Of a stretch of DNA of 42,878 bases, positions 19,378 through 31,361 are shown in pieces. The DNA is from a virus. The DNA is taken from the IMG/VR virus record IMGVR_UViG_3300025120_011362, positions 1-42,878 of that record; one strand, 5' to 3'. The notes below the pieces were generated by a model. The model saw only the letters and a program-made list of their open reading frames with translations, was not told the DNA's origin and ran no database searches. Positions within the stretch are counted from its first letter, which is position 1, and each line of letters starts with the position of its first letter. A program made the translations under genes and the position numbers.

Positions 19378-21426
19378 CTACTTTGTAGTTGCGATAAACA
19401 CACCATTCCAATCAGCAGGTAAAGGTTGAGTTTTCATAAACTCACAACGTTCTTTCCACATATTATAGTAACCTTCCATCTTTCCATCAAAGTTACTATA
19501 CAGTTGGTCACATAATTTAATTGCTTCATCAAACTTTTGTTGTTTATAATACTCGTACATTTGTACATGATATTTTTGACTGGTTCTGTATGCAGGCTTT
19601 ACATCATCTAATACAGTCCATATACCAATACCAATTGTTTTACCTTTAACTGCTAGATCATCTACTTTTAAATAAAAGAAATCATCTTTGGTACGTTCGT
19701 ATGTGTTTTCACCTACCAATAGTACACACCCATATTCTTTACACTTGCTTTCTATTCTAGCGGCTGTGCTGACTGAGTCTCCGAGGACGTCATAGCTGTG
19801 TCGTTGGGTTGATCCCATTTCTCCCAAATAGCCAAGCCCAGTATTGATACCAGCCCCCATGCCAACAGGAGGTCTGCCATCAGCCGTAATTTTCTCATTG
19901 AATTTCTCCACTGCTTTCAGCATATCCAATCCACATTGAATTGCTGTCTTAGGATGCTCTGGATCGTCAATTGGAGCATTGTGTACATGCATACTTGCAT
20001 CACCTATATATTTTATAATCATTCCATCCATGTCTAATACTGGTTGTGTAATGGCATCCATATAACCATTCATAATTTTCGTAAGACCCTTAACATCATC
20101 ACCAAATGATTCTCCCAACGGCGTAAAGCCACGTAAGTCACTAAAGCATATGCTAACTTCTTTTTTCATACCGTCTTTAATAAGTGCAGGGTTCTCTTGT
20201 AGTAAACGCACAACTGTAGGACTTGCGTATCCTGCAAACTGTTTCTTTATCTTTTGTTTCTCAAAAAACTCTAGCACAAATCTTAAAAATATAGCATGCA
20301 AACCTACAAGCACTATTGCAAGCATAGGCATTGTTGCATCTAGCAAGTACAAATAATTTGTCCAAGCATACCAAGTTGCGTATACAACACCAACTCCAAA
20401 TGTAATAATACTTAAACCTGCCAGCCAATAGGGAGCAAAGCGACCAAGTATAACGATCAAAAATCCGACACTAAATGTAGTAGCTATCTCTAATAAAAAG
20501 GCCCAATACGGACGAGATATTGTGTCTCCATCTAGTATATTTTGTAATGATACGGCACTAGGCATATAGTTATATTGCCCGCCTTTGGGACTTGCAATGA
20601 TATTTGTTAATCCGTCTGCTGTTACACCAACTATTACAGTTTTACCTAGTAGTTCTGGAAACCTAGTTATTTCACTTGCACTTATTGTATCAAATGTTTT
20701 ATTCCAACGTAGCCAAACTCTAGCATTGCTATCTGTTTGTATTACTGCATAACCAGGTACACGCATTTTGTCTATGCCGCCTTCGTTACTCTTAACTTGA
20801 TAGCTAGGTTCACCAACAGCAACACGTATTGTTTCAATTGCAATACTAGGATAAATGTCTTCACCTATACGCATCAACAACGGCAAGCGTCTGACTACAC
20901 CATCGATCTCGGGTACAGTGTTTAATACTCCAACACCGTCTGCATTTTCCCCAAATTCTGGTATTGGTCCTATCATACCGTCCCATTCAAATAAGAAAGG
21001 TAATGGATCATTAATTTTTGCTACGCCACGTGGCACACCATTTTTGTTTGCTGTAAAACTTCCGTTTTGACCTATTACTACACCGTTACCATTAATAGCA
21101 TTAAGCAATTCTTGGTCACCATCTAGTCTATCATATTCACTAAACAGTATAGGAAGCACAATAATACCAGCACCTGCTTCTCTTAGTTCCCATATTATAC
21201 CCGCTAGTACACTACGCTTCCAAGGCCATTGTCCGTATTTTTCTAATGACGCTTCGTCAATCGTTACAATACCTATATCGTTACTGTGTACTATCTCATC
21301 TTGTTGTTGTAATAAATCAAAGCTCTTGAGCCTTGCAGTTTCAACAACATAGTTGTCGTTGTAGTGAAACAATGTAATTAGTATAGCAGTTACAAATGCT
21401 AATGTCCAGTGTGTTAGTATTTTCAT
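19378..21426 (-). CDS. CHASE2-domain class III adenylate cyclase
   Basis: A 682-residue membrane receptor-cyclase predicted to make cAMP. After an N-terminal anchor helix (about 5-20), residues 45-300 are an extracytoplasmic CHASE2 sensor (IGIVTIDEASLEKYGQWPW, AGIIVLPILFSEYDR). Three membrane helices follow (about 308-385), then a cytoplasmic cyclase domain (about 422-606). Metal ligands Asp430 (CFSDLRGFT) and Asp476 (YIGDASM) are present, and Lys472 with Asp546 fit adenine specificity. The usual catalytic Asn of the VNxAAR motif is Ser553 (VSTAARIE), Arg557 is kept. I start at MKILTHW, coupled by ATGA to the preceding gene; it is the last gene of the curli block. Confidence 0.92.
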   Translation of the reverse strand: MKILTHWTLAFVTAILITLFHYNDNYVVETARLKSFDLLQQQDEIVHSNDIGIVTIDEASLEKYGQWPWKRSVLAGIIWELREAGAGIIVLPILFSEYDRLDGDQELLNAINGNGVVIGQNGSFTANKNGVPRGVAKINDPLPFLFEWDGMIGPIPEFGENADGVGVLNTVPEIDGVVRRLPLLMRIGEDIYPSIAIETIRVAVGEPSYQVKSNEGGIDKMRVPGYAVIQTDSNARVWLRWNKTFDTISASEITRFPELLGKTVIVGVTADGLTNIIASPKGGQYNYMPSAVSLQNILDGDTISRPYWAFLLEIATTFSVGFLIVILGRFAPYWLAGLSIITFGVGVVYATWYAWTNYLYLLDATMPMLAIVLVGLHAIFLRFVLEFFEKQKIKKQFAGYASPTVVRLLQENPALIKDGMKKEVSICFSDLRGFTPLGESFGDDVKGLTKIMNGYMDAITQPVLDMDGMIIKYIGDASMHVHNAPIDDPEHPKTAIQCGLDMLKAVEKFNEKITADGRPPVGMGAGINTGLGYLGEMGSTQRHSYDVLGDSVSTAARIESKCKEYGCVLLVGENTYERTKDDFFYLKVDDLAVKGKTIGIGIWTVLDDVKPAYRTSQKYHVQMYEYYKQQKFDEAIKLCDQLYSNFDGKMEGYYNMWKERCEFMKTQPLPADWNGVFIATTK

Positions 21427-21542
21427 AATCCTAAACTCCACATCCAAATCGGAATAATAATAAAATGTAATATTACACACAATGCAATCATTAGTACTAC
21501 TGTTCTTTTACCCTGGGGGTGATTGTTTCCGTGCATACTCAT
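21423..21542 (-). CDS. small single-span membrane protein, 39 aa
   Basis: A 39-residue protein: a short basic N terminus (MSMHGNNHPQGKRT) and one membrane helix (VVLMIALCVILHFIIIPIWM). Its stop overlaps the cyclase start (ATGA), so it is probably co-translated with the cyclase and could be its small partner. The frame is open upstream into the previous gene, but the Met at 21542 begins after that gene ends. Function unknown. Confidence 0.6.
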   Translation of the reverse strand: MSMHGNNHPQGKRTVVLMIALCVILHFIIIPIWMWSLGL

Positions 21543-26460: not shown

Positions 26461-26683
26461 ATACTAGTGTAGTCTCCGGGTTAACCTTTACTGGTTTACA
26501 ATATGCAGTAATTCTATGTTCTGGAGGGACCATCCATTTGCTTCCGTAATTACCATACTGCCTAGGTATACGTCTTGCATAGTATTGACAAACATCAATA
26601 CTTCTGAAGTACATAGGGCCGGGTTGTTGTTTTGCATCTTCACCTGATCCGATGAGTACAACTAAGATAAAAGCATGTATCAA
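26450..26683 (-). CDS. small exported or membrane-anchored protein, 77 aa
   Basis: A 77-residue protein with a short hydrophobic N terminus (MIHAFILVVLIGSG), which may be a signal peptide or anchor. It is followed by a polar domain with two cysteines (DVCQYYARRIPRQYGNYGSK, ITAYCKPVKV) that could form a disulphide outside the cytoplasm. It follows the 26687 gene by 3 bp on the same strand. Conserved role unknown. Confidence 0.65.
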   Translation of the reverse strand: MIHAFILVVLIGSGEDAKQQPGPMYFRSIDVCQYYARRIPRQYGNYGSKWMVPPEHRITAYCKPVKVNPETTLVYDH

Positions 26684-26686
26684 TGG

Positions 26687-27169
26687 TCACCAATCTCCCC
26701 TTGCCTTTCCAACAAAGTAAATAAGTCCACCTAGCACACCTAATACTGCAATTGCGGCGAAACAGACTCCTACTATTTCTAATACTTGTCTGCGTCTTTC
26801 TTCTTGGTCATAAATTGCCTGTTGACGTCTTTTTCTTATATCAGCTTCAGTTTTTAGTAGCTCAGTCCATGCACTTGGACCTCGAGTAAAACTGATTATA
26901 TTTCTTAATTCTTCTCTCATATCTTCAGCTTTTTTCTTAGCCATAAAAATTTGCATAGCTTCTTCTTCAACTGAGCCTGCGTTGAATAATTTCTTAAACA
27001 GAGGAGGTTTTTTATTATACTCTTCTGCTTTTTTAATATCACTAACGGCTCCCATCCATCGACCTAAGTCTCCTGCCATGCCTTCGATATCACGTCCTGC
27101 CGCAAAAGCAGACTTAATTGTGTTGAAAGCCGCGGTGGCGGTTGCTACTGCTGTAATTGGATCTATCAT
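26687..27169 (-). CDS. conserved phage membrane protein with helical domain
   Basis: A 160-residue protein: an Ala-rich N-terminal helix (MIDPITAVATATAAFNTIKS), a charged helical middle with coiled-coil character (EEEAMQIFMAKKKAEDMREE; RKRRQQAIYDQEERRRQ), and one C-terminal membrane helix (VGVCFAAIAVLGVLGGLIYF). I recall proteins of this plan (MIDPVTA... start) in T4-like cyanophages, without known function. It heads the three-gene minus-strand group running to 26314. Confidence 0.75.
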   Translation of the reverse strand: MIDPITAVATATAAFNTIKSAFAAGRDIEGMAGDLGRWMGAVSDIKKAEEYNKKPPLFKKLFNAGSVEEEAMQIFMAKKKAEDMREELRNIISFTRGPSAWTELLKTEADIRKRRQQAIYDQEERRRQVLEIVGVCFAAIAVLGVLGGLIYFVGKARGDW

Positions 27170-27277
27170 GTATTGTCACTCTCACTCTGTACTTGGTTAG
27201 GTACTATACGTATTTAATATACCTCAACCAGAATATTAAGTGTGTGTTTAATGTAACACCAAAAATGACGAAAAAGG

Positions 27278-27305
27278 TTGACAAGTGTTTAATAGGCTGT
27301 ATACT
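27278..27305 (+). promoter_or_regulatory. early-type promoter, divergent member
   Basis: TTGACA at 27278-27283 and TATACT at 27300-27305, spaced by 16 bp, in the AAAAAGGTTGACA context of the repeated early promoters. It lacks the GACATCTTGGTG spacer block. It lies about 50 bp before the gene at 27356, in the 186-bp gap that also separates the divergent 27169 gene. Confidence 0.7.
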
Positions 27306-27355
27306 GTGTTTATTGTTTAGGGAAAACCCTAAGCTAAACTTTAATGGAGGCACAT

Positions 27356-27601
27356 ATGGCTTTTACAACAATTAAAACTAACCAAAAAACTTTCTTAGAA
27401 ACTTATCTAAGAGGTACCGGAAAAACTTTGACTGCGAAAGACGCAAAAGCAAGGTTTGGCATTCAGCAACTTCCTGCTAGAATGAGCGAAATGAAATCAG
27501 CTGGACTTAATGTCAAGACTGATGTAGCTACTACTGGAGCAACACGATACAGTGTAACTGCACGTGATGTTACTGGTTCAAGAGCAAAAATGTTTGCATA
27601 A
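27356..27601 (+). CDS. winged-helix-like small protein
   Basis: An 81-residue basic protein resembling a small winged helix-turn-helix: helix 1 KTFLETYLRG, helices 2-3 TAKDAKARFGIQQLPARMSE, and a wing (VKTDVATTGATRYSVTA), ending DVTGSRAKMFA. GGAGG at 27346-27350 fixes the ATG at 27356; longer versions would include the ribosome site. It has its own promoter before and terminator after, so it is a stand-alone, probably highly expressed unit, perhaps a DNA-binding or transcription-modifying early protein. Confidence 0.75.
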   Translation: MAFTTIKTNQKTFLETYLRGTGKTLTAKDAKARFGIQQLPARMSEMKSAGLNVKTDVATTGATRYSVTARDVTGSRAKMFA

Positions 27602-27623
27602 TAGCAGATATTTTAAATTAAAG

Positions 27624-27649
27624 ATAGGTCCTTCGGGGCCTATTTTTTT
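27624..27649 (+). terminator. rho-independent terminator with UUCG loop
   Basis: ATAGGTCC (27624-27631) pairs with GGGCCTAT (27636-27643), one G-T wobble, around a TTCG tetraloop, followed by six Ts. It lies 22 bp after the winged-helix-like gene and before the next early promoter, so it separates two transcription units. Confidence 0.9.
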
Positions 27650-27670
27650 GAATAAAACAAAAGAAAAAGG

Positions 27671-27699
27671 TTGACAGTATGACGTCTTGGTGTTAATAT
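27671..27699 (+). promoter_or_regulatory. repeated early promoter, copy A
   Basis: TTGACA (27671-27676), 17-bp spacer containing GACGTCTTGGTG, and TAATAT (27694-27699), preceded by AAAAAGG. The spacer block differs in one base from GACATCTTGGTG at the later copies. It drives the gene at 27733, which has GGAG before its ATG. Confidence 0.85.
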
Positions 27700-27732
27700 G
27701 TAAGTATAAAGTGAGAAACAAAGGAGTATTTT

Positions 27733-27990
27733 ATGCGAATCAAAGGTGCAATGACTATTTTAAATAAGCGTTGTGAGTTTTATGGTAAAACTCTTGCATG
27801 GTTAATTGATGCTATTGACAATGGTATGGATGAAAACATGACCGTTACACAAGCATATGAAGTTTACAAAATGGATCAAGGTCTAGTTTGGTGCGGTGTA
27901 AACGGAGTTGGGTTTACTACACCTGAGAATTCCTCCAACGAATGGAAAATATTCCGAGGTGAAGGTGTGCAGTTGGAGATGGCAATATAA
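27733..27990 (+). CDS. hypothetical early protein, 85 aa
   Basis: An 85-residue soluble protein with helical N-terminal half (AMTILNKRCEFYGKTLAWLI) and a polar C-terminal half. It begins 33 bp after an early promoter with GGAG at good spacing. Its stop overlaps the start of the SWIM-type protein by one base. No domain recognised; position suggests early expression. Confidence 0.7.
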   Translation: MRIKGAMTILNKRCEFYGKTLAWLIDAIDNGMDENMTVTQAYEVYKMDQGLVWCGVNGVGFTTPENSSNEWKIFRGEGVQLEMAI

Positions 27991-28193
27991 TGGCTTTCCC
28001 AAGCGAAGTAATTAATACTAAAAATCATCCATTTGTTGGAATAGTATGGCCCGTTGTAGGCAGTAAAGGTGATGAATATAGTGTTGAAATGTTGGATCGC
28101 GGATTTGACTGCGACTGTCCTGCTTATCGTAAATGTAAGCATATCAAACTTGTTGAAGATAAAATTTGTGGAGTAGATAATGTTAGCAATTGA
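27990..28193 (+). CDS. SWIM-type zinc-finger protein
   Basis: A 67-residue protein with the SWIM zinc motif CxCx(n)CxH: CDCPAYRKCKHI around residues 41-52, preceded by strands SVEMLDRGF. SWIM domains bind DNA or proteins. The N-terminal part (NHPFVGIVWPVVGSKGDEYS) is unassigned and there is no other domain. It is co-transcribed behind the early promoter at 27671 and is directly followed by an overlapping small gene. Confidence 0.75.
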   Translation: MAFPSEVINTKNHPFVGIVWPVVGSKGDEYSVEMLDRGFDCDCPAYRKCKHIKLVEDKICGVDNVSN

Positions 28194-28320
28194 TCATAAA
28201 ACATATGCAGATTATGTAGAATATAATCATGCTAGAGGGTATGGCGCATTTCCTGAAGATCTTTGGAATGCATTAAAAGAACAAGACGCAAACACAGTTT
28301 ATAGAAAGACAACTCAATGA
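28180..28320 (+). CDS. small hypothetical protein, 46 aa
   Basis: A 46-residue protein rich in Tyr and charged residues (YADYVEYNHARGYGAFPEDL). Its ATG lies in the end of the SWIM gene (14-bp overlap) and its TGA overlaps the PTH2 ATG. It fills what would be a 120-bp gap, and couplings at both ends support it. No function recognised. Confidence 0.6.
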   Translation: MLAIDHKTYADYVEYNHARGYGAFPEDLWNALKEQDANTVYRKTTQ

Positions 28321-28724
28321 CACCTGTATTATATATTTTAATGAGAACTGATTTGGATTCAATGAATCCTGGTAAAGCTATGGCACAAGCTAGTCATGCC
28401 GGCAGTGCATTTGTACATTCAATAGAGGGTGGATACAATGTAGATGAAGATCTGTTTGAAGAATGGCAAGAGTCAACGACACAAGGTTTTGGTACTGTGT
28501 TGGTACTTGGTGTTAATGAAGATCAAATGAGAACCGCAGTTGAAGTTGCTGAAAGTTGTGGCGTAGATAAGTTTCCATGTGACATTATACATGATCCAAC
28601 TTACCCACTACAAGATGGTGACACCACACACTTTATTCCTTTGGATACTTGTGGTTATATATTTGGTGATAAAGATGATGAGATTCTGCAATCAATATTA
28701 GGTAATTTTGAATTGCATTATTAG
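28317..28724 (+). CDS. peptidyl-tRNA hydrolase 2 family protein
   Basis: A 135-residue protein of the PTH2 family, which releases tRNA from stalled peptidyl-tRNA. The N-terminal signature LYILMRTDLDSMNPGKAMAQ with SHAGSAFVHS matches the RxDLxMxxGKxAAQxxHA block that builds the active site; later segments (FGTVLVLGVNED, IIHDPTYPL) fit the fold with an insertion. PTH2 is archaeal/eukaryotic-type, unlike the bacterial Pth, so it would add a second activity to the host. It ends just before an early-type promoter. Confidence 0.8.
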   Translation: MTPVLYILMRTDLDSMNPGKAMAQASHAGSAFVHSIEGGYNVDEDLFEEWQESTTQGFGTVLVLGVNEDQMRTAVEVAESCGVDKFPCDIIHDPTYPLQDGDTTHFIPLDTCGYIFGDKDDEILQSILGNFELHY

Positions 28725-28725
28725 G

Positions 28726-28753
28726 TTGACATATCCTACAAATATGTTATAAA
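28726..28753 (+). promoter_or_regulatory. early-type promoter before the ParB-like gene
   Basis: TTGACA (28726-28731) within GGTTGACA and TATAAA (28748-28753), spaced by 16 bp. It lacks the GACATCTTGGTG block. A start about 7 bp downstream would put the tandem hairpins at 28762 at the very 5' end of the mRNA. Confidence 0.7.
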
Positions 28754-28761
28754 TGTATACA

Positions 28762-28800
28762 GGGCCAGAAGTGCCCGCTAACCAAGGACCATAAGTGTCC
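28762..28800 (+). promoter_or_regulatory. tandem covarying hairpins in the 5' leader
   Basis: Two small hairpins follow one another: GGGC-CAGAAGT-GCCC (28762-28776) and GGAC-CATAAGT-GTCC (28786-28800). The loops differ by one base, and the one stem difference is compensated (G-C becomes A-T), so pairing is kept. The ribosome site ACGGAG follows at about 28807 and the ATG at 28820. This looks like a functional RNA element, perhaps a protein-binding site or mRNA 5'-end stabiliser. Confidence 0.7.
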
Positions 28801-28819
28801 GATATAACGGAGAATACAA

Positions 28820-29959
28820 ATGACAGAACTATCATACGCCACTCGTGCGAACAAAGAATACGATTCATGCGAATCAAATTTTATTTCCCTACAACAAAGA
28901 CTCAATGAAGCACTAGATAGAGCACCACACTTTCGTACTCAACTTGCTCAAGTGATAGAAGAGTTTAAAGATAGAAATCCTCAGTGGGATAGCTTTGAGA
29001 ATATCAATCTATGCGAATCATTGGAAACTGCACTGGATAAAATCCTTATAGATACAACCATGCAAAGACAGCCAAACATTAGGCATATTTTGTATATTTT
29101 AAATGAATTCAAAGAAACTATGGTAATGAGTTTGCAGGTTTACAAAAACGAAGATGGAGACTATGTTGCCTGGGACGGACAACATACTGCAATAGCTTTA
29201 TATATTATTGCATGCCTCATATATGGTAAACTTCCAAGTCAAGTTAAAATACCTATTGTTGTTTATTCAATAACACAAAAGAAAGAAATCCGTAATAATT
29301 TTATTAAACTAAATGGTGAATCTAAATTAAATTTAGACTTTATCGACACTTACAAGCAAATGGTTTATGGAGTTAAAGTGGATGGTGCAACAGATCCAGA
29401 ATGGGTAGATGTTTCTGAAAAGAATGATATTCTAGCAGAAGCAGATTTATTTGCAACCAATAAAAAGTTTGGCGACGAAGACGAGTCGGGTGCGTTTACA
29501 TTAATTGCAGATACTGTTATGAGTAGCAAAGGTATAGACAAAAGAAAATCCAAATCAGTTACAAGTATGTTCGCTGAATACTGGAAAAGACTTGGGGTAG
29601 AACGTCCTGTAGAAGCTAAAGAAGCTAGGCAGTTGTTTGAATACTTTAACTTGTGTGATTTGCAAAATATCGATATGCAAAAGCATATGGGCGAGTTTGT
29701 TAAATTTGTAAAACAATTTGAAGCAGACTTTAGTCCCAATGGAATGTTTTGGTCAAAAGTTAGACATGCATATGTAAGTTGGTATGCAGAGAAAAATCCA
29801 GACTTGTATGAAGAACAGGATGGTAAAGTTAGATTTAGCAGTGAGATGCCAACAGGTGTTCCGTTTCTAATAGAGCAACTCAAAAAAAGCACAAATATAC
29901 CTACACCAAAGTATGTTGCTAATAATGGCTTTAAGCCAGCTCAAAAAGATCTGTGGTAA
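28820..29959 (+). CDS. ParB/DGQHR-like domain protein
   Basis: A 379-residue protein. Around residues 110-125 it has YVAWDGQHTAIAL, the DGQHR-type motif of ParB/Srx-fold and DndB-like proteins, in which this motif binds nucleotide or catalyses phosphoryl transfer. Residues 85-175 fit that fold, with VKIPIVVYSI and RNNFIKLNGESK following. The rest is helical and unassigned. It sits behind its own promoter and the tandem-hairpin leader, unlike most genes here. It may act on DNA or on host regulators; the activity is not shown. Confidence 0.7.
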   Translation: MTELSYATRANKEYDSCESNFISLQQRLNEALDRAPHFRTQLAQVIEEFKDRNPQWDSFENINLCESLETALDKILIDTTMQRQPNIRHILYILNEFKETMVMSLQVYKNEDGDYVAWDGQHTAIALYIIACLIYGKLPSQVKIPIVVYSITQKKEIRNNFIKLNGESKLNLDFIDTYKQMVYGVKVDGATDPEWVDVSEKNDILAEADLFATNKKFGDEDESGAFTLIADTVMSSKGIDKRKSKSVTSMFAEYWKRLGVERPVEAKEARQLFEYFNLCDLQNIDMQKHMGEFVKFVKQFEADFSPNGMFWSKVRHAYVSWYAEKNPDLYEEQDGKVRFSSEMPTGVPFLIEQLKKSTNIPTPKYVANNGFKPAQKDLW

Positions 29960-30435
29960 TGCTTAGAGATTGGAGAAATGACGCTAGCAAAGCTGATCAT
30001 ATTGTTAAAGCTCAAGTGGCCCGGGGGGCCACTTGTATGCTAGAAGATTGTAATGAAGCACTCAGTGTATATGTAGGTCCTGGCAGTAATGTGTTGTGTA
30101 GAAAACATCAAAAACAGTGTACTCAGTATGGAGGTATGGGCAAGCCCGAACGTCCACATACATTCTATCGTAACTGGATATGTGAAGATTGTGGATATGA
30201 TCCACGTGAAGATCCAGACTTTGCTGATATAGAAGAATTTGATAACGAGTTTCACAGGCTAGGATGTATGAGAGGTATGATGGAAGGCGACCATGGCATT
30301 ACACAATCAGAAAGTCGCATGGATGAAACACTAGTTGTAGATATAGAAGAAAATATTACGACAAGGTGTTGTATGTGTCATAGAAAGAAAACACTAAAGA
30401 ATAAAGAAAATTTGGGTAAAAAGAAGGGAGACTAG
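29959..30435 (+). CDS. zinc-binding protein, possibly HNH-like
   Basis: A 158-residue protein with several cysteine/histidine clusters: CMLEDC and CRKHQKQC in the N-terminal half, CEDCGYD in the centre, GCMRGMMEGDHG, and CCMCHRKK near the basic C terminus. The multiple CxxC knuckles and the MEGDHG segment resemble a zinc-bound HNH/treble-clef nuclease, but the full catalytic pattern is not certain. The ATG shares one base with the ParB-like stop, so the two are probably made together. Confidence 0.65.
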   Translation: MLRDWRNDASKADHIVKAQVARGATCMLEDCNEALSVYVGPGSNVLCRKHQKQCTQYGGMGKPERPHTFYRNWICEDCGYDPREDPDFADIEEFDNEFHRLGCMRGMMEGDHGITQSESRMDETLVVDIEENITTRCCMCHRKKTLKNKENLGKKKGD

Positions 30436-30438
30436 CCC

Positions 30439-30537
30439 TAACTCATACTATAATATTACATAACTTGCGTGAGTGTACTTAACTCATACTATAGTAGTAA
30501 TAGTCAGATGTTGGTTAGAGTCCCAGTCAAATGTTGG
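30439..30537. repeat. short direct repeats in a 152-bp convergent gap
   Basis: TAACTCATACTATA occurs at 30439-30452 and again at 30480-30493. AGTCAGATGTTGG (30502-30514) recurs with one mismatch as AGTCAAATGTTGG (30525-30537). No convincing frame covers this gap between convergent genes. No tRNA fold was found. It could be a small RNA, a 3' regulatory region or protein sites. Confidence 0.5.
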
Positions 30538-30818: not shown

Positions 30819-30888
30819 GTATTATCTCCTTTTATATACGGATGTAGTACACCCGTATTATTATTTACAAAAAAGATGCAGAAAAAGG

Positions 30889-30917
30889 TTGACAATAAGA
30901 CATCTTGGTGCTATATT
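30889..30917 (+). promoter_or_regulatory. repeated early promoter, copy B
   Basis: TTGACA (30889-30894), 17-bp spacer ending GACATCTTGGTGC (the first G belongs to AAGA-C context), and TATATT (30912-30917), preceded by AAAAAGG. It drives the gene at 30951, which has AGGAG before its ATG. Confidence 0.85.
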
Positions 30918-30950
30918 ATAAGAGTAAGTTAAGCAAAACAGGAGTTAACT

Positions 30951-31292
30951 ATGCAGACACAGATTCAAAATTTACTCGCAGACATCAAAACAGACTATAT
31001 CAATTGGTCTACTAGCAATGGAACTAAAGAAATTAGTTCATATGCACAAGATGTGCTTAATGCTTTTGATGACAATGTTGAAGTAAAACATGGTAAGAAA
31101 TACATCAAAATACTTGGTGGTATTTCTAGTGGTGTTTGGGGTTTTATTGTTGCTACTGATGACCACCCTAAGTTTAAAAAAGGTGACATACTAAAAGCGG
31201 CAAGTTACAATGCTCCTACAACAAATAAAGCTAGAGGTAACGTTTTTGACGGTTACAAAATTCAATGGACTGGACCTAATTACTTAAACTAA
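30951..31292 (+). CDS. conserved-type early phage protein, 113 aa
   Basis: A 113-residue soluble protein with a helical N-terminal half (QIQNLLADIKTDYINWSTSN) and a beta-rich, Gly/Lys-rich C-terminal half (KYIKILGGISSGVWGFIVAT; FKKGDILKAASYNAPT). It is alone between two copies of the repeated early promoter, so it is a single-gene transcription unit. I recall related sequences in marine T4-like phages but no function. Candidate host-takeover protein by position only. Confidence 0.75.
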   Translation: MQTQIQNLLADIKTDYINWSTSNGTKEISSYAQDVLNAFDDNVEVKHGKKYIKILGGISSGVWGFIVATDDHPKFKKGDILKAASYNAPTTNKARGNVFDGYKIQWTGPNYLN

Positions 31293-31303
31293 AAACAAAA
31301 AGG

Positions 31304-31332
31304 TTGACAGTATGACATCTTGGTGCTATACT
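31304..31332 (+). promoter_or_regulatory. repeated early promoter, copy C
   Basis: TTGACA (31304-31309), 17-bp spacer with GACATCTTGGTGC, and TATACT (31327-31332), preceded by AAAAAGG-like sequence (CAAAAAGG). AGGAG and the ATG at 31362 follow. Confidence 0.88.
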
Positions 31333-31361
31333 GTTAACATAATAAGAAAAAGGAGTAACAC

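Follow-up and report, generated by a model that had tools for sequence, protein, structure and literature searches.

Short hairpins in phage leaders adjoin early promoters in lambda boxB and HK022 put. To our knowledge, only a small number of phage leader RNAs that bind proteins have been described beyond those of T4, lambda and the RNA phages. In phages T4 and RB69, a hairpin operator of 16–18 nt is bound by the DNA polymerase gp43, resulting in autogenous repression (PMC3014915). A different plan, two similar GC-rich hairpins in tandem before the regulated gene, characterizes the guanidine-II (mini-ykkC) riboswitches (PMC5486947).

The window studied here, a 42,878-base fragment of an uncultured virus, carries two small tandem hairpins in the leader of an operon encoding a ParB-fold protein (F0) and an HNH nuclease (F1), which belongs to large and for the most part uncultured phages. 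Like the gp43 operator, whose loop is partly conserved among relatives (PMC3014915), this is a short leader structure upstream of a ribosome-binding site, and it is conserved in relatives at a fixed place near that site. Unlike the gp43 operator, it usually consists of two hairpins, with different loops and putative protein binding; its second hairpin lies 15–20 nt before the ATG rather than approximately 40 nt, and the genes controlled would be those of a ParB-fold protein and a nuclease instead of a DNA polymerase. Our best reading is that the hairpins represent a new family of phage cis-regulatory RNAs and form a translational operator recognized by an RNA-binding protein, which may itself be a product of the operon.

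Leader of the F0–F1 operon

Among the proteins of the window, the clamp loader has its nearest relatives in the jumbo phages PA5oct and Paride (56%), and the Clp ATPase in large phages of Sinorhizobium and Agrobacterium. A gene for a PTH2-type peptidyl-tRNA hydrolase (28317–28721) lies upstream of the leader; its relatives are genes of Caulobacter, Brevundimonas, Sinorhizobium and Ruegeria phages.

The leader begins with a sigma-70-type promoter on the plus strand, comprising a −35 box TTGACA (28726–28731), a 16-nt spacer and a −10 box TATAAA (28748–28753), with a predicted transcription start at about 28760. Homologous leaders possess a near-consensus TTGACA/T-17-TATAAT promoter at the matching place. 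Hairpin 1, GGGC-CAGAAGT-GCCC (28762–28776), is followed by an unpaired linker GCTAACCAA (28777–28785) and hairpin 2, GGAC-CATAAGT-GTCC (28786–28800), all read directly on the plus strand. The linker measures 9 nt, correcting the 10 bp given in the preliminary description, which rightly assigned the hairpins to the start of the ParB-like mRNA; they lie between promoter and start codon. From the end of hairpin 2 there are 19 nt to the ATG of F0 (28820–29959, plus strand, 379 aa), and the Shine-Dalgarno sequence CGGAG (28809–28813) can pair with the TCCG that ends this hairpin. The F1 frame (29953–30435, plus strand) has an in-frame ATG at 29959 overlapping the stop codon of F0 (TAATG). The exact pattern GGNCCANAAGTGNCC occurs once in the window, the remaining matches carrying 2–3 mismatches.

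The structure appears to be a new RNA family, even though the kind of mechanism proposed for it is already known. No Rfam 15 model matched the window at the gathering score, and E-value scans of the window locus and 16 homologous loci returned nothing over the hairpins. We also found no published description of the element in the literature.

Conservation and covariation in relatives

Homologous stretches of F0 were collected from a viral contig collection (23, later 180). Of the 67 distinct homologous leaders, 46 contain one or more hairpins fitting GGNC-N5-7-GNCC in which all four pairs can form, usually two; single-hairpin versions also exist. The leader of L072 includes one G-U pair, and L086–L099 carry a three-pair version. 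Linkers in relatives span 7–11 nt and frequently begin with GCTAA or GCAA. The preliminary description proposed that leaders lacking pairing or loop conservation would speak against a selected motif: most leaders keep both, while about a dozen of the 67 have no hairpin or an unrelated one. As about a dozen F0–F1 lineages do without the hairpin, the operon does not strictly require the element.

Covariation was assessed with a loop-anchored test, in which the recurrent loops and the closing C-G pair served as anchors and the third stem pair was not assumed. This pair is Watson-Crick in 81 of 83 leader hairpins, against a mean of 25.4 and a maximum of 42 in 10,000 shuffles, and it takes all four combinations (GC 35, TA 24, AT 11, CG 11). 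Of 271 occurrences of the same loop strings in antisense and downstream DNA, only 6 are flanked by three pairs. The earlier proposal that the difference between the two stems of the window preserves pairing is supported by this comparison. An alignment of mixed loop lengths made with MAFFT misaligned hairpin 1; sequences of equal loop length and a covariance model were used instead. In the covariance-model alignment, which is fitted to the model and thus favourable and which includes a few weak matches, 99.7% of pair cells are paired, four of eight pairs show two-sided changes, and 28 two-sided cells stand against 6.3 after shuffling. On the F0 protein tree, with lone hairpins scored as hairpin 2, at least 6 pair changes are needed for hairpin 1 and at least 11 for hairpin 2, alongside 14 and 26 loop changes, respectively.

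The GG-CC and C-G pairs are nearly fixed, and the loops, 5–7 nt long, are asymmetric and always lie on the mRNA strand. AAGUGAA, AAGAGAA, GAGUAU and AAGAU recur; the loop of the window is a rare variant within the family. Most leaders draw on a restricted purine-rich set of loops, in keeping with the loop conservation suggested from the window alone; loops change often between lineages. That the hairpins are a selected, conserved RNA element, as first supposed, appears nearly certain from comparison of the homologous leaders.

Single-sequence folding of the window alone is unremarkable (z −0.82), so the case for the element rests on comparison. Hairpin 2 of the window is only marginally stable (P ~0.37) and competes with a UCCG/CGGA pairing over the Shine-Dalgarno sequence. 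We considered masking of the ribosome-binding site by this pairing and rejected it, as it is present in the window and not general among relatives. In predicted folds of the relatives, the hairpins are formed with a mean probability of 0.84 (hairpin 1) and 0.86 (hairpin 2), and the Shine-Dalgarno sequence is mostly unpaired (mean 0.67), which fits an operator and not a Shine-Dalgarno-masking switch. A separate observation concerns the leaders of L084, L089 and L102, where another hairpin, GACC-GAGGAG-GGTC (GACC-CGGA-GGGTC in the L102 version), precedes the ParB-like gene and holds the Shine-Dalgarno sequence in or beside its loop.

Position, exclusivity and apparent exchange of the element

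In most leaders hairpin 2 ends 15–20 nt before the start codon and 4–8 nt before the Shine-Dalgarno sequence. Between the −10 box and hairpin 1 lie 6–42 nt, depending on the leader (sd 10.5). In L025 and L070 the hairpins are found approximately 300 nt further upstream; there, an extra ORF of about 90 codons precedes F0, and hairpin 2 lies 19 nt from the ATG of that ORF. The near-fixed distance to the ATG, the variable distance to the promoter and the arrangement in these two loci together tie the element to the ribosome-binding site that comes first in the operon.

Longer leaders contain an additional 5′-terminal hairpin of 6–11 pairs between the −10 box and hairpin 1. It was seen in L041, L054, L056, L079, L160 and L163 and is absent from the window; an example reads TGTACAGC-AGTTCC-GCTGTGCA. 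In many leaders it begins at about the predicted transcription start. This hairpin displays a compensatory change of its own between L160 and L163. In two loci, tmRNA-like genes detected with the Rfam beta_tmRNA and permuted tmRNA models are located directly upstream of the operon (L054:454-950 and L071:1-241).

In phage contigs of 94–365 kb, GG-CC hairpins with family loops occur at the operon leader, one site per contig, with a single exception, an extra solitary GG-CC match in a 365-kb contig (G010 position 362100). Secondary covariance-model matches in the same genomes were discarded, those inspected lying in apparent coding DNA and being unlike the element. Two tandem patterns were searched against 2.9 million viral contigs and returned 24 stretches, 22 of them with the F0 gene directly downstream. 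Of the other two, L223 is a truncated part of a contig in which the F0 gene is known to occur, and L222 is a chance match inside a GC-rich gene. Single-hairpin matches in unrelated viral contigs were also dismissed as chance-like, since they fall within long open frames or GC-rich stretches.

Comparison of the window with L065 points to one exchange event. The end of the PTH2 gene and the −35 region are near-identical in the two, the sequences diverge from within the promoter onwards, and the protein tree places the two F0 proteins in separate supported clades; the leader thus appears to have moved with the operon. The exchanged cassette would comprise the leader hairpins, the F0 gene and, by adjacency, the HNH gene. 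Such cassette exchange is expected of a cognate regulatory RNA, but simple linkage across a few dozen bases would give the same picture, making the event only compatible with autogenous control.

Putative function and the operon proteins

We hypothesize, with moderate confidence, that the tandem hairpins are a protein-bound translational operator of the F0–F1 mRNA that limits ribosome access, for which T4 gp43 and its operator offer the closest precedent. A protein would bind both similar loops on their GG-CC stems and, since hairpin 2 ends only 4–8 nt before the Shine-Dalgarno sequence, the bound protein would block the 30S subunit and reduce synthesis of the ParB-fold protein; the overlapping stop and start codons would then carry this down-control through to the HNH nuclease. 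We suggest more tentatively that the binder may be a product of the operon. A specific version of this idea, in which F0, having an NTP-binding fold, or F1 binds the hairpins of its own mRNA and an NTP-gated, RNA-binding ParB-like protein thereby keeps the nuclease in check, is in our opinion rather unlikely. A point against an operator is that the loops vary between lineages more than one strictly read sequence would.

The most serious competitor, still unlikely in our view, is a generic leader structure with no specific partner, which would shield the 5′ terminus of the mRNA against decay and maintain an accessible ribosome-binding site as a standby site or insulator. Many leaders do start with a longer 5′-terminal hairpin followed by the two small ones, hairpin 1 itself forms the 5′ end in short leaders such as that of the window, and the Shine-Dalgarno sequence is mostly unpaired; however, generic structure alone leaves the recurrent loops and the near-fixed GG-CC and C-G pairs unexplained, and the element serves no other gene in these phages. 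At the head of an operon, tandem hairpins near a strong promoter also resemble RNA-based transcription control, that is, antitermination or attenuation on the plan of HK022 put or lambda boxB. We regard this as improbable, because the position of the hairpins is fixed to the start codon and not to the promoter, unlike in those systems, and no terminator-like site occurs in 26500–30500; the loops are presumably unrelated to boxB and put. An RNase processing site, phage or host, maturing or destroying the mRNA might likewise present itself as defined short leader hairpins with recurrent loops, yet nothing in the data points to cleavage and the phages carry no such sites in the rest of their genomes, which leaves it the least credible of the explanations considered here.

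The resemblance to guanidine-II, where the leader of the regulated gene likewise holds a tandem pair of small, similar GC-rich hairpins (PMC5486947), raises the idea of a very small riboswitch for a metabolite. The loops found here argue against it, as they are variable sequences of 5–7 nt (AAGTGAA, AAGAGAA, GAGTAT, AAGAT, CAGAAGT and others) and not ACGR tetraloops, and the usual loops of hairpins 1 and 2 lack the complementarity for kissing. In addition, the linker of 7–11 nt is shorter than in guanidine-II, where it is mostly at least 13 nt (PMC5486947), single-hairpin versions exist and Rfam gave no match; we consider a riboswitch highly improbable. Inverted repeats beside a promoter could also be DNA operators for a dimeric transcription repressor, perhaps the ParB-fold protein itself: DNA binding is known from ParB and DndB relatives, and DndB, a ParB-fold protein, is described as an ATP-dependent transcriptional repressor of its own operon (PMC12704722). 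Nevertheless, the variable loop length, which would space the half-sites by 5, 6 or 7 nt, the asymmetry of the loops and their constant location on the mRNA strand argue against a palindromic DNA operator. The stem position that tolerates all four bases remains complementary, a G-U pair occurs in L072 and the spacing from the promoter spans a range of 36 nt, so that we give this explanation very little credence.

Returning to the translational operator, its candidate binders include the two operon proteins. F0 is followed by the HNH endonuclease F1 (146–168 aa, zinc-binding-like N-terminus) with an overlap of a few bases in 15 of 15 loci. The Pfam HNH domain is recognized in F1 with E-values of 5e-7 to 3e-9 in homologues and 0.007 in the window; in PADLOC, the F1 HNH yields only weak mREase_IV matches (E 0.002–0.004). 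At usual thresholds, the 379-aa protein of the window itself matches nothing in Pfam, PHROG or the PDB sequences, and the F0 profile likewise found no PDB sequence, but a homologue matches the ParB-like PHROG 1033 (E 5e-5). The AlphaFold model of F0 has weak PDB matches to ParB and sulfiredoxin folds and better ones among viral ParB/Srx models. With the WDGQHT motif in an alignment of 15 sequences, fold and DGQ(H/Q) box suggest membership in the ParB/sulfiredoxin superfamily, at weak but consistent scores. Only sub-threshold matches link the F0 family to DUF6551 and DndB; phage ParB-fold fusions to DUF6551 bind ATP, according to a survey of the fold (PMC12704722). No RNA-binding domain was recognized in F0 or F1.

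Adjacent genes for a ParB/Srx-fold protein with a DGQ(Q/H) box and an HNH-type nuclease are also found in GmrSD type IV restriction (PMC4619093). F0 differs in having DGQHT where GmrSD has DGQQR, and the F0–F1 pair is phage-encoded. Pfam scans of F0 and F1 matched neither DUF262 nor DUF1524, and the operon was thus not assigned to GmrSD. We found no published description of the F0–F1 nuclease module, and homologues of F0 were found neither in isolated phages (50,697 isolate records, searched for the module) nor in bacterial genome contigs.

The module (28820–30435 in the window; loci L002–L104) is a conserved two-gene unit of large uncultured aquatic phages, and the element, with strong covariation support and one copy per genome, marks it. 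As a small, synthesizable RNA, the element could serve as bait for its binding protein and help to study how nucleases are kept in check by the phages that encode them. Should the binder turn out to be the ParB-like protein, RNA recognition would be added to the ParB/sulfiredoxin fold.

Elsewhere in the window, a 60-bp promoter-containing repeat reading AAAAAGGTTGACA..CTTGGTGNTA is present in three copies, 72–78% alike (27659–27718, 30877–30936 and 31292–31351), which stand before small genes. On the minus strand, the phage contig also encodes a protein with CHASE2 and adenylate/guanylate cyclase domains (19378–21480), matching PHROG 35576 over nearly its full length (E 7e-198).
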